A stretch of DNA of 64,000 nt. It comes from Cylindrotheca closterium (lineage: Eukaryota > Bacillariophyta > Bacillariophyceae > Bacillariales > Bacillariaceae). Positions 36,311 to 56,899 of the stretch are shown piece after piece. A program made the translations under genes and the position numbers. The DNA is taken from positions 62,001 to 126,000 of the forward strand of contig CAKOGP040002136.1 of NCBI GenBank assembly GCA_933822405.4. The letters are read 5' to 3'. Position 1 is the stretch's first letter, and each line of letters starts with the position of its first letter. The notes under the pieces are model-generated. The model was not told the DNA's origin and did not search any database. It worked only from the letters and a program-made list of their open reading frames with translations.

Positions 36311-39300
36311 ATGATAGGAATGATGGAATCAAGTAGTATCCTCCTTGCTGTCGGTCTGTTCCTGCTGCTTGCACAAGCAGTTTCTGGGACACGCCAGTTG
36401 CAACAACAGCAGCAATGTGATTCATGCGCGCCTCCTATTCCGTTTGATCCATCTGTTCACAAGCCAGTTTACAAGATTGCGTTGCAGCCATCTGTGAATC
36501 TACCACTAATGAGAAGCTTGAACGTCACTTTCGAGGATTACCTCACAGCTACCGCCGGCAAACGTTTTGACCCACCTATCCAGTTTGAAGTCATGATCAT
36601 CACCAATAGTCTTGCCTATGACCTGATGAAAAGCCAGGAGATTGACTTCATTTTTATCAATCCTTTTCAAAGCACATGTTTGGAGGAGGAATTCGGAGCC
36701 CAAGCGATTGCATCGTCCGTCAGAACTACTTCTTTTGGTGGCCAGAAGCTGGCCTTGGCCCATTTTGCTGGGATGGTCATTACACACGTTGACAACAACG
36801 ACATCAATACATTGGCTGACCTGAAGGATAAGGTTGTCGCGGCCGTATCTCCAGCAGCACTGGGCGGACCATTAGTGCAATGGCATGAGATGCAAAAGAA
36901 TGGAATGTCGTACCTCAACGACCCAGCGGCCATCGTCTTCACCAGGTCGATGGTGAGAAGCATTAACGGAGTGATCGACAAGACATATGACGTGGGGTTC
37001 ATCAGAACGAACTTTATGGAATCATTGAAAGAACGGAATCCAGGTCTCAATACCTCAGCAGTCAAGGTCGTCGGGATCCGCAAGGACGAAGGCACCGTTG
37101 ATGAAGCATTTCCGCTAGAGCACTCCACTTCCATCATACCAGAGTGGCGGCTTTCTGCGGCCCCATCTACGCCCGCTAGTATCTCCAAGGAAGTCCAAGC
37201 AGCGTTGTTGGCGCTCAAGGAGCACGGCAGGACCGGTTTGGCAAGGTCAGCTTGCCTGGATGCCAACGGGAACAACACTGCGCAATGTGACGATCTCTCG
37301 GATATTGACTCACAAGTCTTATGTGAGGCCAATATTGAATCTGTCTCAGCTGCTGAAAGCGTGGTGTCAGCGAAAGAGCACAATACCTTCAGAACACCTC
37401 TGTCCTTTCACAGAATTCGAAAGATGGCGCTCGATCTTGGGTCCATTCTGGAGGATCCAACTTCAGATTCGCTCAAGTGCTTCAGACCTTCTGAGTTTTA
37501 CGACCAAATCGTCTGCCAAAATGGTCTCTTCAAGCTTTCACCTGATGCCTTGGCTGCCTCATGTAACACAACAGGGTACTCTTGTCCAGATGGTAGGGAG
37601 TGTATCTGCAAGCCCTGCTTCAAGGCTTTGGCGATAGAGGTGGCTCCAACAGACCAATACGCTGCTGGATCTGGCTGTACCAAGATGAGTATATGCTCCA
37701 CGATTGTCCAAAACGAAGTCATTCAATACACCGTGGTTGATAACCAACAGCTGGAGGGTGGTCGAAATCTGCGGGCAAAGACCCTTGAAGACGGTACTGA
37801 CACAGAAATTGCAATCGAACAAGGGCCCATTCCACACACGTATTCGTTTTCTCTGAGTACTCCAAGAGTTGGCATTTTTATCCTGGAGATTTATGACGGC
37901 GATGAACAGATTGATGCATCTCCGTTGCGTGTTCGGGTAGACTATCGTACTTGCTCCGGTGACAAAGAAGCGAGCGAGGATGGAGTTTGCGAATGCAAAG
38001 CCTCATCAATTGACATAGGTGGAACTTGTGTGCCAATATGGCTTGCAGTGCTTGGTAAGTGACAGCAAAGAGCGTGTGGTAGCATTCGTTGCTGTATCAT
38101 TGATTCAAGCTGATCGATTTTTGTTTGTTTCTTGTTTGTTCTAGTCGCTCTATCACCGATAGCCATTGTTGTTGCGATTGCGGTTTACTTTTTCGTGAAG
38201 AGAAAGGAACGAGAGGCCAACAGTCTGTGGATTGTGAAACGGTCAGACCTAAAGTTCAGCGATCCTCCTGCCGTGCTTGGGCACGGATCTTTTGGATTTG
38301 TCTTACAGGCTGAATATCGCGGATCAAAGGTAGCAGTCAAGCGAGCTCTTCTTCCGTCGTCAAAAGGGGACTCCAGTAGTACAGACAATGTCCAATTCGG
38401 GACACCGTTGAAGCGTATTGGGTCTCAGGATTATGACGAAGACTCAGCAGACTCATCCCGTAGAAGGAGCACCGAGTCGACACGAAGCGTTGATTTGGAG
38501 GTTGGAGCAACAAAAAATCGGGCAGAGCCACAGCCCGCATTGTCAACACGTAATATCACGGCTTCGTCGAAGTCCATGATGATGACCAAAGGAGCCGCAA
38601 ACTCGAGAAAAACAAAACAATTGTTCATGGACGAAATGCGTGTCTTGTCCACGCTTCGGCATCCGAATATCACAACAATGATGGGTATGTCTTATCAATA
38701 TTTGTAATATCATTCAATTGAAGATGGCTTATGCTAACACGTTGCCTCTGGCTCTCATTTCCGCAGGCGCGGTCATTGACGGGAGCGAACCAATGCTCGT
38801 TATGGAATTCATGGAGCATGGGTCTCTATATGAAGTGTTACAGAATCCTACGATTGCATTGGAGTCGGATCTCATCTTGCATATCATACAGGACATTGCA
38901 CAAGGAACTCGATTTTTGCACTCGTCCAACCCCCCTGTCATTCATGGTGACTTGAAGTCAGGCAATATCCTGATTGATTCGAAGTTTCGAGCGAAGCTGT
39001 CTGATTTTGGAATGGCCAAAAAAGGTAAAAGGATAGCTACTGGCACACCTCCATGGATGGCGCCTGAGGTCCTGTCTGGCAAGTCGTCCAATACAACCAA
39101 ATCAGACATGTACTCCATTGGTGTGATCATGAACGAGATAGTCTCAAGGAAGGAACCTTACCACGCCACCACGGATCCTTTGCATGTCATTGTTAATGGA
39201 GTCACAGATCCAAAGGTGAACCGTCGACCAGAGATCCCCTCATTTTGTCCTGTGAAGGTCAAGAAGCTGATCATGTTCTTGTGGCATGCGGATCCCAAAC

Positions 39301-40058
39301 TACGCCCTACAGCCACTGAGCTAAACAACCGATTAGATGATTTGAATGAGCAAGTGTTTGCCGCTTGCGCTCCGACAAAGGCACTGCATCGCCCTCGGGA
39401 AGTTCCCACCGGAGGCAGAGACAATTTCTTGTATCAGGCGTTCCCCCGACATATCGCAGATATCCTGAGCTCAGGGGGCAAGGTCGAGCCAGAGCCACAC
39501 AACGACGTATCCATCTGTTTTTCGGATATTGTAGGCTTTACTACGATTGCTTCGAAGCTTGACCCATTGAAGGTGTCGAGTTTATTGGATCGTCTGTACT
39601 TGAAGTTTGATGAGGTGACTAGGAAGTATGACCTGTTCAAGGTTGAAACGGTCGGTGATGCGTACATGTGTGCTGGCAATCTAGCGAATGATCAGCACGA
39701 AGACCATGTGCGTCGGATTGCTTTGTTTGCTACTGGTATTTGCAAGGCTGCGTCAGAGACGTTGATTGACGAGGATGATCCTTCTGTTGGTTATTTGAAA
39801 ATTCGAGTTGGGTTCCACTGTGGTCCTGTTGTGAGCAATGTTGTGGGATCATTGAATCCTCGCTATGGGCTGTTCGGAGATACGGTGAATGTTGCGGCAA
39901 GGATGGAAAGTTCAGGGGCGGTGGGTAGAGTCCACTGTACTGAAGAATGCGCGAAAAGGTTGATCAACGATGCGCCAGATCTCTTGGTGAAGGCTCGTGG
40001 TGCAACACTGATCAAGGGTCGTGGCCGGATGTTGACATATTGGATATCTGAAGTGTAA
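36311..40058 (+). CDS. Receptor kinase-cyclase with PhnD-like ectodomain (RGC1)
   Basis: Exons 36311-38054, 38145-38684 and 38767-40058 (phase-1 GT-AG introns) give 1191 residues. Signal peptide (SSILLAVGLFLLLAQAVSG), then a phosphonate-binding/PhnD-like type II periplasmic binding fold to about residue 310 (FEDYLTATAGKRF, EIDFIFINPFQST, LADLKDKVVAAVSPAALGG, INGVIDKTYDVGFIRTNF). A Cys-rich stalk (SCPDGRECICKPC) and a beta-sandwich-like segment follow. The transmembrane helix is at about 577-600. Kinase: G-loop GHGSFGFV (627-634), Lys647, HGDLKSGN (~822-829), SDFG (~841). Cyclase: ICFSDIVGFT (metal Asp ~1015), FKVETVGDAYM (Glu ~1055, Asp ~1059), FGDTVNVAARME. Predicted to bind an extracellular ligand and make a cyclic nucleotide inside. 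The Glu suggests GTP as substrate, but the usual Cys partner is Gly. Domains are firm; the ligand is unknown. Confidence 0.9.
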
Positions 40059-41651
40059 AGAACATTTCATTGTTAGGCAGTTTGCACCATCACTAAATAT
40101 GATTATATCTACTCTTTTCGCTTCTGCTTTTTTTTCTTCAAACCATCTTCCGATGAAAGCAATAGACAGAAGTTGGAGATCCACGAAGTAACCCTGTTGT
40201 TTTCGATTACCTACTGTAACAATTGGGCATGATAATCTACATTTCGTATCATTCTATCCCAGCGTTTTACCAATATCAAGACGCCAACCTTCATGTTCGG
40301 GAATTCAGCTGCGGGATGGATATTTTGTGAGACTGAGTTCAACAGCCACCTGTGCCGAACATCTCACTTCTACCGCGACACTCAAACCATTGCATGCGCA
40401 CAAACTTACATGCGTTTTGATACCCAAATTGGCTTGTGAAGATAGATTTAGGATGCAGTCGCAAACTGTGTCCTAATACTGGTATATTGTTGAGTTTTTC
40501 TATCACCATTGCGTCCAAGACACATCACGTGATATGAGATCGGAACATCCAATAAAATAATCGAACCCTTCCAGTAGTAGATTTCAAAGAAAAACCAATA
40601 GAATCCTAGATAACAACCGGTACCAGCTATAGTGTCAGTATAAGTTACCAATTGGCAGAAGCAATCCATATTCCAAGCAAACTATAGAAATCAAATGTAT
40701 CGCTTGAAAATCGTACTTGGAGGGCTGACAGTGGCCCAGGCCACAACTTGCGCAGTACTGGGATGACACAGAAGGCATGTCCAATAAGGATCGATTGGTG
40801 AATTATTTCTGGTTGGAGGGTACCAGTCGGCAGAATATAGAATAGCGAGCTAGCAACCATGCATATCGGCTGTCCTGGTGACAATCTGTTCGACTTTATC
40901 CTTCAGATCCATAAGAATCTCAGTTGTCAAGGCACGGATTGTTCCACGAAGGATATGGCGTTTGCCGGAATCACATTGAAAGCGCTACCAGCATCGCGCC
41001 ACTCCAGTGGACTCAAGCTTCTTCAGACCAATGGCTGCAAGTGCAATACAACCGAGCAGGTAGACGATGATCATTGGGTCTACCGTCAAATGAGGCATTG
41101 CAGCATGACCTCCTACACCTGTTGTCGTATCCAAAATTCTTTGAATTTGAAATCATCAATGTAGACGTCTCTTCTACAATGGGAAGAGCATACCGGTGTC
41201 GCAATTATCGTACCGGTATTGGGCTAATGATAGCAAGACGAAAATATGTCACACAAAACGTCAGTAGGCCCAGTTAGATATCACATCAATATTTTTCATT
41301 AAAAAACTTATGACATTCATATAAGTGCATATGCAAAGGGACGGTATCTTAAAATCGGAATCAGAAATGTCGCGGGCCTCGCGTTTATTATTCACCATTG
41401 AAGGGCGGTTCTCTATTCGGTTCTCCATTCGCGACCTTTCGGAAGTAACCGGTATAAATTTCACCGTCTAAATGTTTGTGCACGTTGAACCCGATTGTTG
41501 ACCTGATCGTTTTGGGCGTAATGACTTTCTATTCATCTTTTACAAGCTATTCCATCTTTTCGAAACGGCGTTTCCACTACCATGATGAACAAAATCTCAC
41601 ACCGAATCATACAAATTACAAAACCCGTGTTCAATACGATAGGTAGTAATA
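40059..41651. other. Intergenic region holding a decayed peptidase fragment
   Basis: About 1.6 kb between receptors 1 and 2. Apart from a minus-strand M20 peptidase relic (listed separately), no gene is visible. The unit spacing is larger than between the other receptors, so this may be an insertion or an old gene trapped when the receptor duplicated. Confidence 0.55.
40800..41130 (-). pseudogene. Relic of an M20-type amidohydrolase/peptidase
   Basis: Read on the minus strand and across frames, the stretch gives, in the right order, GVGGHAAMPHLTVDP (about 41091-41125), then LESTGV, then RGTIRALTTEILMDLKDKVE with an IVTRTADMHGC continuation, then ILYSADWYPPTRNN (about 40800-40850). These are landmarks of the M20D family (IAA-amino-acid hydrolases, carboxypeptidase/aminoacylase type): GGHAAMP, GTIRxLT, and the C-xx-Y/F-xx-xYPPT segment. 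Frames change and stops intervene, and the catalytic N-terminal half was not found, so it is a fragment. Identification rests on memory of the family motifs. Confidence 0.6.
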
Positions 41652-44600
41652 ATGGAATCAAGTATCCTTGTTGTCGGTCTGTTCCTTGTGCTTGCACAAG
41701 CAGTTTCTGGGACACGCCAGTTGCAACAACCGCAGCAATGTGATTCATGCGCGCCTCCTATTTCGTTTGATCCATCTGTTCACAAGCTAGTTTACAAGAT
41801 TGCGCTGCAGCCGTCTGTGAATCTACCACTAATGAGAAGCTTGAACGTCACTTTCGAGGACTACCTCACAGCTACCGCCGGCAAACGTTTTGACCCACCT
41901 ATCCAGTTTGAAGTCGTGACCATCACCAATAGTCTTGCCTATGACCTGATGAAAAGCCAGGAGATTGACTTCGTTTTTATCAATCCTTTTCAAAGCACAT
42001 GTTTGGAGGAGGAATTCGGAGCCCAAGCGATTGCATCGTCCGTCAGAACTACTTCTTTTGGTGGCCAGAAGCTGGCCTTGGCCCATTTTGCTGGGATGGT
42101 CATTACACACGTTGACAACAACGACATCAATACATTGGCTGACCTGAAGGATAAGGTTGTCGCGGCCGTATCTCCAGCAGCACTGGGCGGACCATTAGTG
42201 CAATGGCATGAGATGCAAAAGAATGGAATGTCGTACCTCAACGACCCAGCGGCCATCGTCTTCACCAGGTCGATGGTGAGAAGCATTAACGGAGTGATCG
42301 ACAAGACATATGACGTGGGGTTCATCAGAACGAACTTTATGGAATCATTGAAAGAACGGAATCCAGGTCTCAATACCTCAGCAGTCAAGGTCGTCGGGAT
42401 CCGCAAGGACGAAGGCACCGTTGATGAAGCATTTCCGCTAGAGCACTCCACTTCCATCATACCAGAGTGGCGGCTTTCTGCGGCCCCATCTACGCCCGCT
42501 AGTATCTCCAAGGAAGTCCAAGCAGCGTTGTTGGCGCTCAAGGAGCACGGCAGGACCGGTTTGGCAAGGTCAGCTTGCCTGGATGCCAACGGGAACAACA
42601 CTGCGCAATGTGACGATCTCTCGGATATTGACTCACAAGTCTTATGTGAGGCCAATATTGAATCTGTCTCAGCTGCTGAAAGCGTGGTGTCAGCGAAAGA
42701 GCACAATACCTTCAGAACACCTCTGTCCTTTCACAGAATTCGAAAGATGGCGCTCGATCTTGGGTCCATTCTGGAGGATCCAACTTCAGATTCGCTCAAG
42801 TGCTTCAGACCTTCTGAGTTTTACGACCAAATCGTCTGCCAAAATGGTCTCTTCAAGCTTTCACCTGATGCCTTGGCTGCCTCATGTAACACAACAGGGT
42901 ACTCTTGTCCAGATGGTAGGGAGTGTATCTGCAAGCCCTGCTTCAAGGCTTTGGCGATAGAGGTGGCTCCAACAGACCAATACGCTGCTGGATCTGGCTG
43001 TACCAAGATGAGTATATGCTCCACGATTGTCCAAAACGAAGTCATTCAATACACCGTGGTTGATAACCAACAGCTGGAGGGTGGTCGAAATCTGCGGGCA
43101 AAGACCCTTGAAGACGGTACTGACACAGAAATTGCAATCGAACAAGGGCCCATTCCACACACGTATTCGTTTTCTCTGAGTACTCCAAGAGTTGGCATTT
43201 TTATCCTGGAGATTTATGACGGCGATGAACAGATTGATGCATCTCCGTTGCGTGTTCGGGTAGACTATCGTACTTGCTCCGGTGACAAAGAAGCGAGCGA
43301 GGATGGAGTTTGCGAATGCAAAGCCTCATCAATTGACATAGGTGGAACTTGTGTGCCAATATGGCTTGCAGTGCTTGGTAAGTGACAGCAAAGAGCGTGT
43401 GGTAGCATTCGTTGCTGTATCATTGATTCAAGCTGATCGATTTTTGTTTGTTTCTTGTTTGTTCTAGTCGCTCTATCACCGATAGCCATTGTTGTTGCGA
43501 TTGCGGTTTACTTTTTCGTGAAGAGAAAGGAACGAGAGGCCAACAGTCTGTGGATTGTGAAACGGTCAGACCTAAAGTTCAGCGATCCTCCTGCCGTGCT
43601 TGGGCACGGATCTTTTGGATTTGTCTTACAGGCTGAATATCGCGGATCAAAGGTAGCAGTCAAGCGAGCTCTTCTTCCGTCGTCAAAAGGGGACTCCAGT
43701 AGTACAGACAATGTCCAATTCGGGACACCGTTGAAGCGTATTGGGTCACGGGACTCGTCGCTACCATTGGCAAGCACTGACGAGGATGACAGCACCGACT
43801 CTTCCCATAGAAAGACTTCTCGGTTGACAAATAGCATTGATTTGGAGACTGGAGGAAAAAAGATGCCCCCACAATCCCAACCGTCAGCACATGGTAAAGC
43901 TACAACTTCGAAGTCCATAATGATGACAAAAGGAGTTGCAAACTCGAGAAAAACGAAACAGCTGTTCCTTGACGAAATGCGAGTCTTGTCCACACTTCGT
44001 CATCCAAATATCACTACAATGATGGGTATGCCATATCAATATTTGTACTCTATGCAATGACGAAAGACAGCTTGTTCTAACACAGGTTGTTGCCTCGGAC
44101 TCTCATTTCCACAGGCGCCGTCATCGACGGGAGCGAACCGATGCTCGTCATGGAACTCATGGAGCATGGGTCTCTCTATGAAGTTTTGCAGAATCCTACC
44201 ACTGCATTGGAGTCTGATCTCATTTTGCATATCATCCAAGACATCGCTCAAGGAATTCGTTTTTTACATTCGTCCAACCCACCTCTCATTCATGGTGACT
44301 TGAAGTCAGGCAATATTCTGATTGATTCGAAGTTTCGAGCCAAGCTGGCTGACTTTGGAATGGTCAAGCAAAGTTCAAAGGCAGCCACTGGCACACCCCC
44401 ATGGATGGCACCAGAAATCCTCTCCGGCAAGTCGTCCAATACAACCAAGTCAGATATGTACTCGATTGGTGTGATCATCAATGAGATAGTCTCGAGGAAG
44501 GAACCTTACCATGCCGCAACGGATGACTTATCTGTGATTTTGAATGGAGTCACAGATCCAAAGGTGAACCGTCGACCAGAGATCCCCTCATTTTGTCCTG

Positions 44601-45406
44601 TGAAGGTCAAGAAGCTAATCATGTTCTTGTGGCATGCTGACCCCAAGCTACGCCCTACAGCCACCGAGTTGAATAATCGGTTGGATGATTTGAATGAGCA
44701 AGTTTTTGCGGCTTGTGGGCCTAAAAAGACATCGCGTCTTACACGAGTGGTTCCAACGGGAGACCAAGATGATTTCTTGTATCAAGCATTCCCCCGGCAT
44801 ATAGCAGATGTGTTGAGATCTGGCGGCAAGGTCGAGCCAGAACCACACAACGACGTATCCATCTGCTTTTCGGATATTGTAGGCTTTACTACGATTGCTT
44901 CGAAGCTTGACCCATTGAAGGTGTCCAGTTTGTTGGACCGTCTGTACTTGAAGTTTGATGAGGTGACTAGGAAGTACGACCTGTTCAAGGTTGAAACGGT
45001 CGGTGATGCATACATGTGTGCTGGCAATCTAGCCAATGATCAGCATGAAGACCATGTGCGTCGGATTGCTTTGTTTGCTACCGGTATTTGCAAGGCTGCG
45101 TCAGAGACATTGATTGACGAGGATGATCCTTCTGTTGGTTATACGAAAATTCGAGTTGGGTTCCATTGTGGTCCTGTTGTGAGCAATGTTGTGGGATCAC
45201 TGAATCCTCGTTATGGGGTGTTTGGAGATACTGTGAATGTCGCAGCAAGAATGGAAACCACATCTGCGGCTGGGCGAGTCCATTGCAGTGAATTAAGCGC
45301 GAAGAGGTTGATGGATGACGCACCAGATCTCTTGGTGAAGGCTCGTGGTGCAACACTGATCAAGGGTCGTGGCCGAATGATGACATATTGGGTATCTGAA
45401 ATTTGA
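41652..45406 (+). CDS. Receptor kinase-cyclase with PhnD-like ectodomain (RGC2)
   Basis: Exons 41652-43377, 43468-44025 and 44115-45406, 1191 residues, same architecture and intron positions as RGC1. From about 41978 to 43747, including the whole first intron, it looks identical to RGC1 by eye; it then diverges in the Ser/Asp-rich insert between the kinase beta3 strand and helix C. Kinase residues are present (GHGSFGFV, VAVKRA, HGDLKSGN, ADFGMVKQ). The cyclase is almost identical to those of RGC3 and RGC4, with FSDIVGFT, VETVGDAY and GDTVNVAARME, and ends YWVSEI. Full coding capacity suggests it is functional. The different insert and activation segment (MVKQSSKAATGTPPW) could give it different regulation from RGC1. 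Confidence 0.9.
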
Positions 45407-46227
45407 GAAGCAATTTATTTTAGGTAGCTTGCACTATTGTTATATACACGATTACATCTACTTGTTTCGTTTCTGCTATTGTTTTCTACAACATATGTTA
45501 CCAAATACATTTTGGAATGCGAGGCAGATGTTGGAGATTTGGAGCCTAACACTTCGGCGCCACCTTCTTGATTTCAATCAGCTTCAAGTTGTAACAAGCA
45601 TTTTATTTTTCGAGAACTGAGATCGTAGCTGAAAGTGGCTTATGATTACTTGGGATTAACTACACCCTAGAAACTTGCTTCCTTATTGCTTCACTGGTTA
45701 AAAGGAACACATACTGCTACGGGTCGCCAACAGCAGTTATCAGTTCTATTTTTAGTATTTTTTCTGATTTGAAATGCCGCCCTATTTATTGGCTCGAAAC
45801 TACCACTTTCACTTGTCCAATTGGTTTGTTTGAAAATATCTGGGATCCAGTAGAATGGACAACTCGGCCTCTGCTGCGGCTAATGGATGTTCATAGATAG
45901 CACAGTACTGCCATAATTGGTACAAGAACTGAGTTCGGTGAGAATACAGTTGTACCGGTAGATCGAGGTTAGTGGAGATTTTCCCTCCCCTTATAATCGA
46001 ATGAAATGTCAAATAAAAAAAGTTCTCTTATTTGAGGCCTATTATTTTAAAAAGCGCGAACAAAATGTGTTGAAGCCTGAAATTAAAAAAGCTTGGGCTT
46101 GATGTCCAATAACGAGAATATTGAAGTGCCGGAAATCAATGGGAAACTTTTGAGTTCTCCGTTTCCGCAAATATAAGTACTGATACGATAATATTCTATC
46201 CATATATCAACTCATCGCACAGACTAC
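45407..46227. other. Intergenic, nothing recognised
   Basis: About 820 bp between RGC2 and the RGC3 pseudogene, AT-rich, with only short unrelated frames. Confidence 0.55.
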
Positions 46228-48942
46228 ATGACAGGAACGATGCAATCAAGTCTTCCTGCTATTGCAAGTAGTCACAGGGACACGCCAGTTGCAACAGCAG
46301 CAACAATGTGATTCGTGTGCGCCTCCAATTCCGTTTGATCCATCTGTTCACAAGCAAGTATACAGGATTGGCTTACAGCAAAATGCGAATCAACCATTCA
46401 TGCGAACACTGAATGCGACATTCAATGACTATCTCACAGCTACCGCTGGAAAACGCTTTGACCCGCCAATCCAGTTCGAAATCGAGTTCTACAGCGACAG
46501 AAATCTTGCCTATGTCTGATGGAAAGGAAGGAGGTTGACTTCGTTTTTGTCAGCCCTTTCGTGAGCACATGTTTGGAGGAGGATTACGGCGCCCAATCGC
46601 TTGTATATCTGCTGTCAGAACAACGCCATTTGCTGGCCAAACAATTTCCTTGGCACATTTCGCTGGGGTGCATGGTTATCACGCACGTTGACAACGAAGA
46701 CATTAATACATTGGAGGATATTAAAGGCAAGGTATATATAGTCGCAGTCGGAAATCCTGCAAGTCTGGGCGGGTCATTAATACAATGGCATGAAATGCAA
46801 AAGAAAGGAATGTCCTACCTGAATGACCCAACTGCGCTTGTCTTCACCGGGACGATGCGTGCAAACGTCAATGGGATCATTGATAAGTCATATGACGTGG
46901 GGTTCATCAGAACCAACTTTCTCGAATCCTTGACAGCCCGAAACCCAAATATAAATGCTTCAGCTATCAAAGTCGTCGCATTCCGAAAGGATGAAGATAC
47001 CGTTGATGAAGCATTTCCCCTGGATCGATCTTCTGCTGATGTGCCAGAGTGGCGTTTCTCTGCCGCTCCATCTACGCCCGCCAGTATCTCCAAGGAGGTC
47101 CAAGCGGTGTTGTTGGCACTCAAGGAACACGGCAGAGTTGGGCTAATTAGGTCGGCGTGTATGAACCTCCTACCGTGCACGGGCATGGATCTTTTGGTTT
47201 CGTCTTGCAGGCTGAATATCGTGGATCAAGGGTTGCAGTCAAGCGAGCTCTTCCGCCATCAAAAGGGGGCTCTGGTAGTGCCGAGAGTGCCCAGTTTGGG
47301 TCACCGTTGAAACATATGGGGTCTCGTGATTCATCATTGCCATTGCTTGACGAGGAGGCACCAGTAGACACGGCTTGCATGAAAAGAAGTAATTTGACGG
47401 AGAGCCTTGCTTTCAAAATTGAAGACACACCTAACAGCATTACTTCGTCGAAGTCAATGATGAAAACAAAAGGATTCTCCAACTCGAGAAAAGCAAAGCA
47501 GCTGTTTATGGACGAAATGCGTGTCTTGTCTATACTCTTCGTCACCCGAACATTACAACAATGATGGGTATGTTACATGTTTCAGTTCTGGCATCCACTG
47601 AAGGAGCGGATTAAGCTAACACGTTGCCTGTGACTCTTTCTCCCACAGGAGCAGTTATTGACGGGAGCGAACCAATGCTCGTTATGGAATTCATGGAGCA
47701 TGGATCTCTTTATGAAGTTTTGCAGAATCCTACTATTGCATTGGAGTCTGATCTCATCTTGCATATCATACAGGACATTGCACAAGGAACTCGATTCTTG
47801 CACTCGTCCAACCCCCCTGTCATTCATGGTGACTTGAAGTCAGGCAATATCCTGATCGATTCGAAGTTTCGAGCAAAGTTGGCTGACTTTGCGGAATGGC
47901 CAAAAAAGGTAAAAGGATAGTTACTGGCACACCTCCATGGATGGCACCAGAAATCCTCTCCGGCAAGTCGTCCAATACAACCAAGTCCGACATGTACTCG
48001 ATTGGTGTGATCATCAATGAGATAGTCTCGAGGAAGGAACCTTACCATGCCGCAACGGATGACTTATCTGTGATTTTGAATGGAGTCACAGATCCAAAGG
48101 TGAACCGTCGACCAGAGATCCCCTCATTTTGTCCTGTGAAGGTCAAGAAGCTAATCATGTTCTTGTGGCATGCTGACCCCAAGCTACGCCCTACAGCCAC
48201 CGAGTTGAATAATCGGTTGGATGATTTGAATGAGCAAGTTTTTGCGGCTTGTGGGCCTAAAAAGACATCGCGTCTTACACGAGTGGTTCCAACGGGAGAC
48301 CAAGATGATTTCTTGTATCAAGCATTCCCCCGGCATATAGCAGATGTGTTGAGATCTGGCGGCAAGGTCGAGCCAGAACCACACAACGACGTATCCATCT
48401 GCTTTTCGGATATTGTAGGCTTTACTACGATTGCTTCGAAGCTTGACCCATTGAAGGTGTCCAGTTTGTTGGACCGTCTGTACTTGAAGTTTGATGAGGT
48501 GACTAGGAAGTACGACCTGTTCAAGGTTGAAACGGTCGGTGATGCATACATGTGTGCTGGCAATCTAGCCAATGATCAGCATGAAGACCATGTGCGTCGG
48601 ATTGCTTTGTTTGCTACCGGTATTTGCAAGGCTGCGTCAGAGACATTGATTGACGAGGATGATCCTTCTGTTGGTTATACGAAAATTCGAGTTGGGTTCC
48701 ATTGTGGTCCTGTTGTGAGCAATGTTGTGGGATCACTGAATCCTCGTTATGGGGTGTTTGGAGATACTGTGAATGTCGCAGCAAGAATGGAAACTACATC
48801 TGCGGCTGGGCGAGTCCATTGCAGTGAATTAAGCGCGAAGAGGTTGATGGATGACGCACCAGATCTCTTGGTGAAGGCTCGTGGTGCAACACTGATGAAG
48901 GATCGGGGCCAGATGATGACATATTGGGTATCTGAAGTTTGA
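46228..48942 (+). pseudogene. Receptor kinase-cyclase pseudogene (RGC3)
   Basis: Recognisable from the ATGs at 46228/46240 to the same C-terminus as its neighbours (YWVSEV). Lesions: a shortened, frame-shifted signal peptide near 46245; a one-base loss near 46507 (NLAYV then stop, continuing in another frame as KEVDFVFVSPF); a compensated frameshift in the ectodomain near 46600-46660; a deletion joining the ectodomain after IRSAC directly to the kinase G-loop (junction about 47160), removing the Cys-rich stalk, first intron and transmembrane helix; a two-base gain before helix C (near 47530); and a two-base gain inside the DFG motif (near 47892). In contrast, the cyclase part (47941-48894) is open and nearly identical to RGC2, as expected of gene conversion. 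Confidence 0.93.
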
Positions 48943-49969
48943 AGACAAAAGGTTAGAAATGCGTAAAGTGACACTAGTTGTAATATGTAATTGACAATTT
49001 ATTAATTCGTCAGCAGATCACAACGTTTCTCAACGGAACAACCTTTGATCAGCCATTTTGCAACTGTCTCCTCGGTCTCTTTATTCGGCGACTTTTACTC
49101 CTTAATCATCATTCGTGCAACAGTGACCTTGTCGAACGATTATTCTTGTTGATTCTGAACGAATCGAACTGACTTCAAATCATAGATTGATTGATTTATT
49201 CAGTCTTCCACGGTAGCCTCCAAAACTTGTGATGTTAATTTTCCTATTTTGGTCTCGTCGTCGAATTGAGCCACCGTTCTACACTTTTCTTTACAATTCC
49301 TCTGAAGAGCTTTCAGTAGTCGGACAATGGCAAGATCGGATGAAGTTTGCCGAAAGAACTCACCTTCATCTGATGCTTCTGTTGCTTGTAAGAATACGGT
49401 TCATTGGATTGGTGTATTGACCGATAGCCGCACCATATCATTCTGCCCGTTGTGATTGGTTGTTGCATCAAAGTCTCGAGATGGTCATGTTGATAGTTTC
49501 ACCTGTAATGACTGGTACTCGCATTCTCCAAGCGTAGCGAGTAGATTCCGCAAATAATATATTAAGTTCCGATTGATATTCATTCACAAGTGACTTTTTA
49601 GCTCGTCCAGTGGGTCCTTCTCCGATGGTGGGGGAAAGGCGAACCATTTTTGAAGGCCCTTTTACTCCAAACACTTATATCAGACTTAAAGAAGATTTTC
49701 GCAATTTGCATTTTTGATGTTTTTTTTAAGTTTCATTTTATAACAAAAGCAAGATGACGGTCATTTCTGATTGCTTCTCTTCAATGTAGGTGAATAACGG
49801 AGGTTATAAGTCCACAAAGAATCAAACACGTTCTCCATCCCATTTACAATATTTACATGCAGTTCCCATTTTGCGATGGATCTCGTGGGTTCGTTGTCAC
49901 ATTGGGCCTGACGATGACGCTCTGAGAAGGCATCTGATATAAAGCAGTGAGCCCCCACATCGCAAAAGA
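48943..49969. other. Intergenic, no gene assigned
   Basis: About 1 kb upstream of RGC4. A minus-strand frame of about 60 codons (49468-49674) has protein-like composition, but it matches no family known to me and has no partner exon. It may be chance or a relic. Confidence 0.5.
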
Positions 49970-52900
49970 ATGATAGAATCCAATATGCTTATCGGTCTGT
50001 TCCTGCTATTGCAAGTAGTCAGAGGGACACGTCAGTTGCAACAGCAGCAACAATGCGATTCATGTGCACCTCCAATTCCCTTCGATCCATCTGTTCACAA
50101 ACAGGTATACAAGATTGGGTGCCAGCAACTTGCCAATGAAGCATTCATGAAAACTTTGAATGTGACATTCGATGACTACCTCACGGCTACCGTCGGCCAA
50201 CGTTTCGACCCACCGATCCAATTTGAAATCAATTTCTTTAGCGATAGAAATCTTGCCTATGATCTGATGGAAAGTCAAGAGATTGACTTCGTTTTTGTCA
50301 GTCCCTTTGTAAGTACTTGTTTGGAGGAGGAATACGGCGTTCAATCGCTAGTATCTTCGATCAGAACAACTTCCTTTGGTGGTCAGAAGGTGGCTTTGGC
50401 CCATTTTGCTGGAATGTTCGTGACGCACGTTGATAACGGTGACATTAACGCATTGGAGGATATCAAAGACAGGGTAGTGGCAATCGCAAACCCAGCAAGT
50501 CTGGGCGGGGCATTAATACAATGGCATGAAATGCAAAAGAATGGAATGTCCTATCTCAATGACCCAGCTGCCATTGTCTTCACCGGGACGATGGGTGCGG
50601 TCGTCAACGGAATTATCGGCAAGACCTTTGATGTGGGGTTTGCCAGAACCAACTTTATTGAAGGATTGCAAGCACGAAACCCAATTCTAAATGCCTCAGC
50701 AATTAAGGTCATCGGGGTGCGAAAGGATGAAGGCACCGTGGACGAAGGATTTCCGCTCGATCGCTCTACTTCCATCATGCCAGAGTGGCGTTTTTCTGCC
50801 GCTCCTTATACGCCCGCTTCTGTGTCCCGAGAAGTTCAAGCAGCTTTGTTGGCGCTTGAGGAGCACGGCAGGACTGGTTTAGCAAGGTCGGCTTGTCTGA
50901 ATGTCAATATAAACAACACTGCGCAATGCGACGATCTATCGAATGTTGACTCACAAGTCTTATGCGAGGCGAATATCGAATCTGTCACAGCCGCTGAAAG
51001 CGTGATTTCAACGAATGACTACATGACCTATAGACCACCTCTATCGGTCAATCGAATTCGAAAAATGGCACTCGATCTTGGGTCCGTTCAGCAGGATTCA
51101 ACCTCAGATTCGCTCAAGTGCTTCAGACCTTCTGAGTTTTACGACCAAATCGTTTGTCCAAAGGGTCTCTTCAAGCTTTCACCTGAGGCCCTGCTTGCCT
51201 CATGTAATGCAACAGACTACTCATGTCCAGATGGGGGTGAATGTATTTGTAAGCCTTGTTTCGAGTCTTTGCCAATTGAGGTGGCACCGACGGAGCAGTA
51301 CGCTGCTGGGGCTGGCTGCACGAAAATGAGCATCTGCTCTTCGAGTGCCCAGAACGAAGTCATCCAATATACTGTGGTCGATAATCAAAAGCTAGAGGGT
51401 GGCCGTAATCTGCGGGCTAAGACCCTTGAAGACGGCATCGACACAGATATTGCGATTGAGCAAGGACCCATTCCACACACGTATTCGTTTTCTTTCAGTA
51501 CACCGAGAGTTGGCATCTTCATTCTGGAGATCTATGATGGTGATGAACAAATCGATGCATCTCCATTGCGTGTTCGGGTTGACTACCGTGCTTGTCCTGC
51601 TGACAAAGAAGCTAGCGACGATGGAGTTTGCGAATGCAAAGCCTCATCTATCGATATATCTGGAGCTTGTATTGCTATATGGCTGGCAGTGCTTGGTAAG
51701 TGACAGCAAAGCGTTTATGGTACTATTGATTACCTTATTAATCAATACTCATCGATCCTTGTTTCGCTCTTTGATTTCAGTTGCACTATCCCCAATTGCC
51801 ATCATTGCTGCGGTTGCGGTGTGCTTTTTCGTGAAGCGAAAGGAACGAGAGGCCAACAGCCTGTGGATTGTGAAACGGTCAGACCTGAAGTTCAGTGATC
51901 CTCCTGCTGTACTAGGGCATGGATCATTTGGATTTGTTTTGCAGGCTGAATATCGCGGATCAAAGGTAGCAATTAAGCGGGCTCTCCTTCTGCCTTCAAA
52001 GGGGGGCTCTAGCAGTGCCGACAATGTCCAATTTGGAGAACCGTTGAAGCGTAATGAGTCACGGGATTCATCTTTGGCAAAGATTGGCATCGACGAAGAC
52101 ATAGCTGACTCTGACCGTAAGAGGAGCACTGATTCGATCAAAAGTCTTGATCTGGAGATTGGAGCAACTCATGGTAAACCCAGGACGTCCAAGACAATGA
52201 TGAAGACACAAGGATTTACACACTCGAGAAAAGCAAAGCAGCTGTTCATGGACGAAATGCGTGTCTTGTCTACTCTTCGTCATCCGAATATCACAACAAT
52301 GATGGGTATGTTTCATCGGTATTTGAAATAGTGTGAACCACAGAAGAAGGCAGCTTATGCTAACATGTTGCCTATGGCTCTCATTCCCACAGGCGCGGTT
52401 ATTGACGGGAGCGAACCAATGCTCGTTATGGAGTTCATGGAGCATGGTTCTCTATATGAAGTGTTGCAAAATCCTACAATTGCATTGGAGTCGGATCTCA
52501 CCTTGCACATCATCCAGGACATTGCACAAGGAACTCGATTCTTGCATTCATCCAATCCACCTGTCATTCATGGTGACTTGAAGTCAGGCAATATCCTGAT
52601 TGATTCGAAGTTTCGAGCAAAGCTGGCTGACTTTGGAATGGCAAAGCGCTGTAGAAGCATGTCATCTGGTACCCCTCCATGGATGGCACCAGAGGTCTTA
52701 TCTGGCAAGTCGTCCAATACAACCAAGTCAGATATGTACTCCATTGGTGTTATCATCAATGAAGTAGTCTCAGGCAAGGAACCTTACCACGCCACCACGG
52801 ATCCGTTGCATGTCATCGTGAATGGAGTCACAGATCCAAAGGTGAACCGTCGACCAGAGATTCCCTCATTTTGTCCTGTGAAGGTCAAGAAGCTGATCAT

Positions 52901-53684
52901 GTTCTTGTGGCATGCTGACCCCAAACTACGCCCAACAGTCACAGAGCTAAACAACCGATTGAATGATTTGGGTGACCAAGCGTTCGCCGCGTGCGCTCCC
53001 AAAGCGGCACTGCATCGCCCTCGTGAAGTTCCCACTGGAGGCAGAGACGATTTCTTGTATCAGGCGTTCCCCCGGCATATAGCCGATGTGTTGAGATCTG
53101 GCGGCAAGGTCGAGCCAGAACCACACAACGACGTATCCATCTGCTTTTCGGATATTGTAGGCTTTACTACGATTGCTTCGAAGCTTGACCCATTGAAGGT
53201 GTCCAGTTTGTTGGACCGTCTGTACTTGAAGTTTGATGAGGTGACTAGGAAGTACGACCTGTTCAAGGTTGAAACGGTCGGTGATGCATACATGTGTGCT
53301 GGCAATCTAGCCAATGATCAGCATGAAGACCATGTGCGTCGGATTGCTTTGTTTGCTACCGGTATTTGCAAGGCTGCGTCAGAGACATTGATTGACGAGG
53401 ATGATCCTTCTGTTGGTTATACGAAAATTCGAGTTGGGTTCCATTGTGGTCCTGTTGTGAGCAATGTTGTGGGATCACTGAATCCTCGTTATGGGGTGTT
53501 TGGAGATACTGTGAATGTCGCAGCAAGAATGGAAACTACATCTACGGCTGGGCGAGTTCATTGCAGTGGCGAATGCGCGAAAAGGTTGATTGATGACGCA
53601 CCAGATCTGTTGGTGAAGTCTCGCGGCGCAACAGAGGTCAAGGGTCGTGGTCGAATGATGACATACTGGGTATCTCAAGTCTGA
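49970..53684 (+). CDS. Receptor kinase-cyclase with PhnD-like ectodomain (RGC4)
   Basis: Exons 49970-51695, 51781-52305 and 52393-53684, 1180 residues, same layout and phase-1 introns as RGC1/2. Signal peptide (MLIGLFLLLQVVRG), then the conserved QQCDSCAPPIPFDPSVHK. The ectodomain is clearly diverged from RGC1/2 (CQQLANEAFMKTL, EINFFSDRNLAYDL, DINALEDIKDRVVAIANPAS), so it may bind a different ligand. The stalk, transmembrane helix (LSPIAIIAAVAVCFF), kinase (GHGSFGFV, VAIKRA, HGDLKSGN, ADFGMAKR) and cyclase are all intact. From about 53091 to 53560 the cyclase is nearly identical to RGC2. Its 3' end converges on phosphoesterase MPP3, 175 bp away. Confidence 0.9.
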
Positions 53685-53859: not shown

Positions 53860-56485
53860 TCATAGCATCCTATCATGCGAGAACGTCCTGTTCCAGCTTG
53901 GGTCACCGGATACAGAGACAGCAACCTTCAATGGTGGATTAATGGTCCCAAAGTCAACTTGGAGTCGCTGCATGTTTTCAAGTCCTCTGTAGTGTTCCTC
54001 AAATTCATAAAAGTGATAGTCCCCATTCAAGTACATTACTGGGATATCATTCTTCAAATCCTGGCGAATGTATCTCCTCAAGGGGGCAAAGAAAGCTTCA
54101 TGTACCATTCTAGGAAATGCGTGCCCAAAGATTACCACGGATAGCGCATCATTGTTCACTACGTGCTGGTCCAGAATTTCCTTCACCCACCCAAACTGTT
54201 CCCGTAGCTGAATCGAATGCGAGGATCGGTCGACAATGTCCCCTCCCACCAGATTCACACCAAAAAAGAGAGTCCTCTTGTGGAAAAAGTGAAAGTTCTC
54301 AGGTCGGGTGGGATTTCGTTCAACCCTGAAGGAATGCTCCCAATTTTGTTCCAAGTCTCCAAACGCTTCGAGCCAGAACCCCTGAGCTTCGTCGCGATTG
54401 GGACAATCGGACCACTCGTTGTCTATGATGATGCATACAACAAAACAGAAGGAAGCCGATTAGACAACAAGCCCAAAGGAAATATTATTCATTCAACAGC
54501 ACCAAGAAAAAGAGCTTACCTCCCGGAATGATAAAGACTGGAATATGGGATCGAAGTAGAACATCCCTGATTTCCATGTATTCTTCTCGCCTGCATGGTT
54601 GGTCGGGAAATTGTCCGGCTCGAATGTCACCGACATGAATGAGGAATTCCCCATCCGCTGGGACACGATCGGTCATGGTTGTTTTCAATTGATTCTTTTC
54701 CACATTGTTGTAGGGAACGTCCCCTATCGCATAAAATATGGTCTCGAGCTCTTGATAAGTTGGCATGGTCGATGGTAAACTAGAGGGTGCAATCGTGGGA
54801 AGCGTGCTGGGCAATCTGGATGGCATACTAGAAGGAACTCGGGAAGGCAAATCACTGGGAACAAAGGAGGGTGGCACCGAAATGGATGGTAGCATGGTGG
54901 GCCGATTGGAAGGCATGAAGGATGGCGTGGTCGCTGCAATTACGGCGGCACTGGATCTTGCATCATCACTGTCACCAGTATCAAAATATCCGTTGCTGAG
55001 AACCACCATGAGGGACACAAAGATACCTAGCAGAATGCAATAGCAAGCAATATGTTTGGACCACTTGTGGCAGAGTTGACCAATTGTCTTTTTCTTTTCA
55101 AAGCTGCTGTTGCTGCCTTTTGTGGCAGAGTCATCATCCTCGTTGGTTGTAAATGCCGTGTCATCGGAGGTGTCCAACTGCAGCAACTTTTTGGACGTGG
55201 GTTTCGTGGGTGATATTTCTGTGGAATCGTCATCCTCCTTATGCTTGGTGGTGCTGGTCTTTGAATTTGGCATCGCGGACTCAATGTCATTGACGTTCGA
55301 GCCGTCACCAGGTTGTGGCATGGCCGATTCAATGTCATGGTCGTTTGAATCATCACCACCAGGTCCCCAATCGTCTTCACCGACAGAGCCGTTTTCAGAG
55401 ACAATCGAGGGCTGCCGAGATAGAGAATTGGACGACGAAGAAGCAATGATGGGCACATTCTTCAATAGGTCATTGGAATCATCATGATCCGGTACTGTTG
55501 GAGATTTTAGATCGGGTGAATTGGACGACGAAGAAGCAATGATGGGCACATTCTTCAATAGGTCATTGGAATCATCATGATCCGGTACTGTTGGAGATTT
55601 TAGATCGGGTGCCTGTAGAAGGGAGGACCTTGGGTCATCCTCTACTATTTTGGAATCATCACCATCCATAGGTGCAAGGATATTGCCAGTAGTAGCTGTT
55701 GATGATTTCGAATCATTGTGATTCGATTGTTCATCAGCAGCAATGCATTGATTTTGATTGCCCTGACTAGTGGCATCCTGTGCAACGGAAGGTGATATGG
55801 AGTTGTTGTCATCACCATCGCCGACAAATAACAATTCGACACTCCCTGTGCTAATGTCGTCCAATAGTAGGTTGCTGGGAAGTTTTAACAAATGCGACTC
55901 TGGTCGTGAGGATGAATGCCGTGACGAGGAAAGGGAGCCAAGGCTTTTTCTTGAAAGTGAGGATGCCTTACTACCTGCAGACACGTATCCGATGGAACTC
56001 AAGATGGATGCCAGTGATCCATTGCCGAGAGAAACATCGTCGTCGTTATCATCCTTATTGTCGTTATCCCTATCACCATTGTCACCATTGGCATTGTTTT
56101 CGTTCACGCAATCATCATCCGATGGCTGCAAAATAGAGACAGGAATGTCAATGGCCTGTGTTGCTTCTTGAACAGAAGACGAGAGCCAAGAGGCAACAGA
56201 GGATAGTGCCCATTGGTCTTCTTCTTCTGCTGCTACTTCAACCTGCTGTTCTTTATCGTTTGCTACTTCTCCTTCATCAGTGACAGATGCAGCAATCTCC
56301 CAATCTGCAACCTCTCGTTCATCATTGTCATCGTCGACTTCTGTGACGAACGACTCGTCTGTGATGAAGGATACAGCGTTCACGGCTGCAGCATCGTCAG
56401 CTTTTCTATTCTCGGTTACCAATCCACACATATCAACAGATAATCGGGATGTATTGGCGGGAGAATGAACATTATGATCTTCCAT
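53860..56485 (-). CDS. Membrane-anchored calcineurin-like phosphoesterase (MPP3)
   Basis: Exons 54520-56485 (the ATG chosen at 56485; the in-frame codon at 56521 is TTG) and 53860-54422, phase-1 intron in PG|DNEW, 842 residues. It has the longest cytoplasmic part of the group: about 475 Asp/Ser-rich residues including a perfect 31-residue tandem duplication. The transmembrane helix is at about 478-500 (CYCILLGIFVSLMVVLS). A PS linker follows (VPSDLPSRVPSSMPSRLPS), then the catalytic domain from about 582: AIGDVPYNN, HVGDIRAG, PGDNEWSDC, VVIFGHAFP, YLNGDYHFYE and a SHDRML end. Type II topology places the enzyme outside the cytoplasm. Closest by motif pattern to MPP1. Confidence 0.85.
55425..55610. 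repeat. Perfect 93-bp tandem duplication inside MPP3
   Basis: Two copies (55425-55517 and 55518-55610) appear identical by eye and encode a duplicated 31-residue acidic/Ser segment (SPDLKSPTVPDHDDSND followed by LLKNVPIIASSSSN). The identity suggests a recent in-frame duplication in the cytoplasmic region. Confidence 0.93.
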
Positions 56486-56899
56486 GTTGCTGAAAATTAT
56501 TCTTTCACCACTTGCGTACAACAGCTATTCATGTTCGTAGCCCTGGGGTTTTGAATTTGGTGTTTCAATTTTCCCACCAAAACCTGAGTTGGATTTGGTT
56601 GGATTTCGCGTTACCGTTGGCACCTCCGGCTCATCTTTCCCGCGCCTTTTCCTTGGTTAGTTAGGAACGAGCGCCAGGCCAGAAAGACCATCGGAAGGCC
56701 AACTCCACACAAATACCATTCAAAACAATCGTACGTACTGGTGCGAAATGACCTGAAGAAGATTTCATTATATTGAAGCAGAAGAATGTACGGTAGTAAT
56801 GTTTAGCTGGCATTGATGTCATCATACACGTAAAATAAATGATGAGCCAAATATATATAATCAAAATACCACAGCTAATGTAGTATATTCTTTTAATCT
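56486..56899. other. Intergenic, nothing recognised
   Basis: About 410 bp between the start of MPP3 and the end of MPP4. AT-rich toward the MPP4 stop. It holds the MPP3 promoter by position. Confidence 0.5.

Follow-up and report, generated by a model that had tools for sequence, protein, structure and literature searches.

Tandem receptors that combine a PhnD-like ectodomain with TKL-type kinase and class III cyclase domains in the diatom Cylindrotheca closterium

Four tandem receptor copies at the locus

The window analysed here, a 64,000-base stretch (C534:62001-126000) of the 47.6 Mb genome of Cylindrotheca closterium (Bacillariaceae), carries a tandem cluster of receptor genes in which a PhnD-like ectodomain is followed by a stalk, a predicted membrane helix, a TKL-like kinase and a class III cyclase (Table 1). 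An earlier note, made from the sequence alone, had described four copies with this domain order. Copies 1, 2 and 4 are indeed intact, whereas copy 3 is frameshifted and lacks the stalk and the membrane helix. Its tblastn matches run through frames 2, 1, 3, 2 and 1, with no counterpart to residues 313-614 of copy 4, and the binding domain runs straight into the kinase N-lobe at a junction near 47163.

The introns of all three intact models are GT-AG and occupy matching positions. Ectodomain and kinase-cyclase lie in one reading frame after splicing, as the note had assumed, and the public annotation has the same joined protein. The copy 1 model is identical over its full 1191 aa to the public C. 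closterium protein P0002 (UniRef name: guanylate cyclase), and P0004 (1180 aa) is the public counterpart of copy 4. For copy 2 our own model was preferred, because its public counterpart, P0003 (1147 aa), omits 44 residues found in copies 1 and 4.

Two elements of the proposed architecture stood only in part. The N-terminal signal peptide, judged by hydropathy, shows as a hydrophobic segment that exceeds the threshold in copies 1 and 2 and stays below it in copy 4. The Cys-rich stalk does contain a Cys-rich segment, but its remainder is a filamin-type repeat; in P0013, a relative from Seminavis robusta, PF00630 scores 21 bits, under the cut-off of 26.9. At nine further loci (L020-L026, L030 and L031) the stalk/filamin segment of P0013 or P0014, used as query, aligns two times, as a duplicated filamin repeat would. 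The copy 1 kinase keeps the VAVK, HGD and DFG motifs; its coding region is split by intron 2 (38685-38766) and includes a low-complexity insert.

By sequence comparison, the window copies are under purifying selection, with dN/dS values between copies 1 and 4 of 0.24 for the ectodomain, 0.11 for the kinase and 0.13 for the cyclase. In the 5' half, from ectodomain to N-lobe, copies 1 and 2 share 99% identity over 2110 bases, followed by 87% over the next 1590; dS is zero across the stretch that begins with the Cys-rich segment and ends with the N-lobe, and 0.56 in the kinase. Gene conversion or unequal exchange between the ectodomain and the catalytic half would leave a mosaic of this kind.

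Table 1 Receptor copies and copy 1 domains in the window, with ANF- and PAN-type loci elsewhere in the genome
Feature	Position	Strand	Details
Receptor copy 1	36311..40058	+	exons 36311-38054, 38145-38684, 38767-40058; 1191 aa
Copy 1 PhnD-like (type II periplasmic-binding) ectodomain	36452..37255	+	~residues 48-315; PF12974 100-310, E 5.3e-27; AlphaFold model, PDB matches
Copy 1 stalk	37256..37948	+	Cys-rich ~316-439, filamin-like repeat ~440-546
Copy 1 predicted membrane helix	38039..38203	+	~residues 577-601, split by intron 1 (38055-38144); hydropathy, splice model
Copy 1 TKL-like kinase	38270..39335	+	~residues 624-951; PF07714 E 8.1e-46
Copy 1 class III cyclase	39486..40049	+	residues 1002-1189; PF00211 E 4.8e-49, active-site residues
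Receptor copy 2	41652..45406	+	exons 41652-43377, 43468-44025, 44115-45406; 1191 aa
Copy 3, broken	46250..48942	+	at least 3 frame breaks; stalk and membrane helix lost
Receptor copy 4	49970..53684	+	exons 49970-51695, 51781-52305, 52393-53684; 1180 aa
ANF locus L037/L148	C535 ~91.9-95.1 kb		ANF_receptor, hydrophobic segment, kinase N-lobe in one ORF; then kinase, class III cyclase
ANF locus L038/L149	C246 ~355.2-358.6 kb		ANF_receptor, hydrophobic segment, kinase N-lobe in one ORF; then kinase, class III cyclase
PAN locus L036	C101 ~212-216 kb		likely PAN-domain receptor cyclase
ORF, open reading frame.

A genome-wide family with alternative tails

PF12974 matches the genome 35 times, grouped into at least 31 loci. 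At 30 of these 31 a PF00211 match lies downstream in the same orientation, at a distance of 1,893-4,510 bases between the low coordinates of the listed matches, against 0.25 of 31 expected if the 170 cyclase matches were evenly spread. The family comprises 29 receptor-cyclase loci, one broken copy and one hybrid-histidine-kinase sibling. This sibling, on contig C457 (L035:1542-6002), is the exception: PF12974, stalk, membrane helix, a kinase without DFG and HisKA share one ORF, followed by a likely intron and then by HATPase and receiver domains; its nearest relative is P0016. A further S. robusta relative, P0015, has a phosphodiesterase (PDE) tail, and the ectodomain-stalk-kinase unit is thus found with three tails: cyclase, histidine kinase and PDE. 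None of the 113 PF00233 matches in C. closterium lies within ~13 kb of any of the 31 PF12974 loci. No centric-diatom or Phaeodactylum name occurs among the PF12974 matches listed, a word-based comparison that does not prove absence, as most entries are nameless and one list shows 120 of 158.

Nine PhnD-receptor loci share one contig (C414:62000-258500). Two pairs among them, L009/L010 and L012/L013, have identical or near-identical ectodomains and may be recent duplicates or uncollapsed alleles.

Conserved catalytic residues in kinase and cyclase

Animal receptor guanylate cyclases contain a kinase homology domain without the catalytic Asp, and in their cyclase the second purine-selecting residue is Cys. 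The roles of the two metal Asp, the GTP-type Glu and the NxxxR residues of class III cyclases, and of the kinase residues, are likewise established. Residues were counted over 30 own-genome models, 29 of which carry a cyclase: copies 1, 2 and 4, and 27 more loci (L009-L035) whose models came from a splice aligner that reproduced both copy 1 introns.

The TKL-like assignment of the kinase is supported by a PF07714 match, with plant CTR1 as its best counterpart among kinases of solved structure. All 30/30 models have the VAVK/VAIK Lys and the HxD Asp, and 29/30 have DFG; at the aligned HGD place, NPR1 has HGN and GC-C has HGR. Because these residues are kept, the diatom receptor kinase is, in contrast to the kinase homology domain of animals, predicted to be active.

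The class III cyclase, also proposed in the note, is supported by the PF00211 match. Both metal Asp and the GTP-type Glu occur in all 29 cyclases and the catalytic Arg in 27, and the full class III guanylate cyclase signature (two metal Asp, GTP-type Glu, NxxxR) is found in copies 1, 2 and 4. In these copies the second purine-selecting residue is Gly. The residues make cyclic GMP (cGMP), rather than cAMP, the likely though not certain product, since the second purine residue is not the animal Cys.

Taken alone, the kinase matches CTR1 at 134 bits and the GC-C kinase part at 63 bits, and the cyclase ties with a soluble guanylyl cyclase. For the joint kinase-linker-cyclase half, GC-C and NPR1 are the best among solved proteins, and the stretch from the aC region to the cyclase end aligns with NPR1 as one piece. 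This joint match is no proof of a shared fusion, because few solved proteins hold both domains.

A type II ectodomain with a rewritten pocket

The note's placement of the ectodomain in the type II PhnD family was borne out by profile search and by structure prediction. Scores for PF12974 (Phosphonate-bd) are 95.2 bits in copy 1, 99.7 in copy 2 and 88.2 in copy 4, against a gathering cut-off of 27. The AlphaFold model of copy 1 (pLDDT 78.3, pTM 0.60) is predicted to adopt the two-lobed type II binding fold, and its nearest PDB structures are ArrX, XAC2383, HtxB and PtxB, which are near-tied, with PhnD also among the leading matches. Searching the PDB with the extracellular exon of copy 4 as a single sequence returned no useful match (best E 0.061), and a profile search placed PtxB at E 0.011, below a glutamine-binding protein with a short match. 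Since these sequence-to-PDB matches are weak, the fold is read from the predicted model.

Within the family, NCBIfam places the ectodomain nearer to TtrS than to PhnD. The TtrS tetrathionate sensor (NF040750) is the top NCBIfam match of copy 1, a partial one at 34.4 bits against an equivalog cut-off of 750, while the PhnD equivalog (TIGR03431, cut-off 261.1 bits) gives 18. PtxB, PhnD, ArrX and AioX are free periplasmic proteins. The ligand motif of PtxB and PhnD, termed STS-H, holds the ligand oxygens in phosphite and phosphonate binders (PMC5700983) and is not kept in the diatom ectodomains. With the columns placed by the profile alignment to PtxB (E 0.011), STS is found in 0/46 aligned sequences and His in 5/46, with 4/46 gapped. 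Close bacterial relatives, compared by eye, retain the His and have SFG in place of STS. Pocket positions also vary among the paralogs. The pocket thus appears to be rewritten, and with the motif absent neither phosphonate nor phosphate should be assumed as the ligand; the suggestion of an organophosphorus sensor, made in the note, is not supported, given the missing motif and the ranking of TtrS above PhnD.

No relatives were found when bacterial genomes were scanned with the ectodomain profile; a scan with bacterial relatives as query returned 558, the best 80 of which formed the bacterial set. These relatives are free binding proteins or heads of signalling proteins. At 20 of the 80 loci the domain lies in an ORF of more than 400 aa, and a Pfam scan of 18 of these 20 found signalling partners in all 18, namely MCP (three loci, all in Cyanobacteria), histidine kinase parts, PAS, and HD (HD_5) with or without GGDEF. 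The three MCP loci (L098, L100 and L109) are cyanobacterial chemotaxis receptors with a PhnD-type head.

A quick ectodomain tree with SH-aLRT support, built on the diatom-type rows and these bacterial relatives with no classical PhnD included, sets 40 rows of diatom type (30 C. closterium models, three from other named diatoms and seven database proteins assumed to be diatom) apart from 85 bacterial rows (80 from named genomes, five from the protein database) with a branch support of 99. Among the 85 bacterial rows, no sister or donor group is singled out. The tree is consistent with one transfer into diatoms.

Compared with bacterial PhnD-type sensors, such as TtrS-like histidine kinases and the MCP, PAS and HD fusions, the diatom receptors likewise place a sensor of this family at the front of one signalling chain, and the C457 paralog even ends in HisKA, HATPase and receiver domains. 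They differ in that the bacterial proteins carry bacterial outputs, whereas the diatom receptors join the head to a eukaryotic TKL kinase and a cyclase through a filamin stalk.

ANF and probable PAN heads on a related kinase-cyclase chassis

The type I receptor domain PF01094 (ANF_receptor) was found at two loci, on contigs C535 and C246. As modelled from sequence, both have the animal receptor-cyclase layout in a diatom (Table 1). At a third locus, on C101, a gap of 262 bases separates the end of the PAN ORF from the modelled kinase, and the PAN matches score slightly below their cut-offs; that this is a single gene is only likely.

These loci were placed in kinase and cyclase trees with 23 PhnD-cyclase receptors (19 from C. 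closterium, one from Nitzschia, two from S. robusta and one of unnamed source), the kinase tree also including two PhnD-type histidine kinases. All 28 receptor kinases fall into a single clade (100/99), separate from 20 other kinases found in the genome, a split that says little by itself. Within the clade, the ANF and PAN types group with the PhnD types L027 and L028 (100/94), and the PAN type with L027/L028 at 100/98; no branch in any of the 200 bootstrap trees has the PhnD-cyclase kinases by themselves on one side (0/200). In the cyclase tree, too, the PhnD types are never isolated (0/200); PAN joins L027/L028 at 97/90, and ANF joins them only at 80/48. The placement of ANF and PAN among the PhnD receptors is thus strong in the kinase tree and weaker in the cyclase tree.

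Because the ANF and PAN types fall among the PhnD receptors, an exchange of ectodomains, and no second invention of the plan, is the reading we draw: sensor heads have likely been exchanged on one kinase-cyclase chassis. The earlier note had proposed that the receptor plan arose independently of animal-type receptors, a bacterial sensor having been fused directly to a kinase-cyclase. The single, bacterial-type ectodomain clade would suit such an origin, as would a kinase nearer to CTR1 than to GC-C, but we consider it unlikely given that two ANF_receptor-membrane helix-kinase-cyclase genes of the same genome nest among the PhnD receptors, that all three head types share one kinase clade, and that neither catalytic domain isolates the PhnD chassis in any bootstrap tree.

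Proposed function and its alternatives

This is a real, large and unusual receptor family. We favour, with good confidence, a reading as single-chain PhnD-headed TKL-kinase/class III cyclase receptors with a predicted cGMP output, likely upon a ligand closing the ectodomain; ligand-gated guanylate cyclase receptors are meant, for which pheromone or bacterial cues are plausible ligands. A small, perhaps anionic, ligand would close the two lobes, and closure would be passed through stalk and helix to a dimer, whose active kinase may auto- or trans-phosphorylate and whose cyclase would make cGMP rather than cAMP. Tandem duplication and gene conversion could diversify the cues that are sensed. Historically, a bacterial signalling sensor domain may have been acquired once, and heads would then have been exchanged on a receptor kinase-cyclase chassis before the family expanded in pennate diatoms.

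Several points weigh against this picture. The membrane helix and signal peptide calls come from hydropathy alone, with the copy 4 N-terminus under threshold; eight of the 30 models have alignment gaps around residues 210-236; and the splice aligner penalises stops and may set introns over lesions, so that a stop-free model is not proof of an intact gene. The catalytic Arg is missing from two of the 29 cyclases, and at the second purine-selecting position the family has Gly or Ala, with Cys in only two of 29. As for the trees, several ectodomain rows are of unnamed source, the 20 comparison kinases were picked from 152 PF07714 matches for single-exon coverage with their TKL status unchecked, and a long-branch warning applies to the cyclase tree. 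With the oxyanion motif absent, an anionic ligand is guessed at from the type of fold.

An alternative is that these proteins signal mainly through the protein kinase, the cyclase being a secondary or vestigial output. The near-invariant kinase residues, in contrast to NPR1 and GC-C, would fit this, and the S. robusta relative P0015 lacks the cyclase metal residues; we nevertheless think it improbable, as metal and GTP-type residues persist in every cyclase model of C. closterium and the cyclase dN/dS between copies 1 and 4 is low. That the ectodomain reports nutrient state as a sensor of phosphate, phosphite or phosphonate is equally improbable: the Pfam family and the nearest solved folds bind arsenate, phosphite and phosphonates, but the STS-H motif is missing, the pocket varies between paralogs, which is odd for one nutrient, and 29 loci are many for one ligand.

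In the favoured reading the diatom receptors would work in the manner of animal receptor guanylate cyclases (NPR1, GC-C), with which they share an extracellular domain, one membrane helix (here by hydropathy), a kinase, a linker and a class III cyclase in one chain. The animal ectodomain, however, is of type I (ANF), whereas copy 1 matches PF12974 and not PF01094; the animal kinase lacks the catalytic Asp, whereas the diatom kinase keeps Lys, Asp and DFG; and the filamin stalk is found in the diatom receptors. By ectodomain and by the dead kinase of the animal proteins, the diatom receptors are not members of that family on the sequence evidence. In a 2010 kinome paper, receptor guanylate cyclase kinases were 'believed to be metazoan-specific' (PMC3019232).

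Large families of membrane cyclases responding to pheromone or bacterial cues are also known from another raphid diatom, S. robusta, as GC/PDE and receptor-type guanylate cyclases (PMC8027222, PMC6688387, PMC7296067), although no ligand-binding domain is named for them in the available text of these papers. There, 17 cyclase-domain genes, eight of them GC/PDE, change upon pheromone in both mating types (PMC8027222), quorum-sensing compounds alter 45 receptor-type guanylate cyclases (PMC7296067), and Maribacter exudate alters seven cyclases (PMC6688387). A sulfated heptapeptide, SIP+, serves S. robusta as a pheromone (PMC12843257), and C. closterium has pheromones of its own (PMC8217010). The word 'phosphonate' is absent from the main texts of PMC8027222, PMC7335047, PMC6688387 and PMC7296067, and in the literature searched, as far as available, we found no link between the pheromone- or bacteria-responsive cyclase genes and this ectodomain.

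In public records these proteins already have their Pfam domains and a cyclase name. For the composition, the scale (about thirty genes) and the likely exchange of heads we found no description in the open-access literature searched; the note's failure to recognise a described family agrees with this.

More tentatively, and with less confidence than in the receptor function itself, the family may form a pennate-diatom platform, with interchangeable PhnD, ANF and PAN heads and a swap to a histidine-kinase tail, in which the PhnD set senses sulfated or phosphorylated pheromones and bacterial metabolites and the active kinase is ancestral. If so, the diatom kinase would preserve a state that animal receptor cyclases have lost. 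Apart from this reading, a diatom family with a bacterial-type head and an apparently active kinase, and with animal-type heads on a related chassis, makes it possible to test how receptor cyclases and their pseudokinase originated. Diatom receptor cyclases also gain a named ligand-binding domain and, SIP+ being sulfated (PMC12843257), a fold of the anion-binding type is a reasonable candidate to assay.

Downstream of the cluster, the window holds a minus-strand ORF of 678 aa (54485-56521) with no Pfam match, inside which positions 55425-55610 are a perfect tandem duplication of a 93-base unit.

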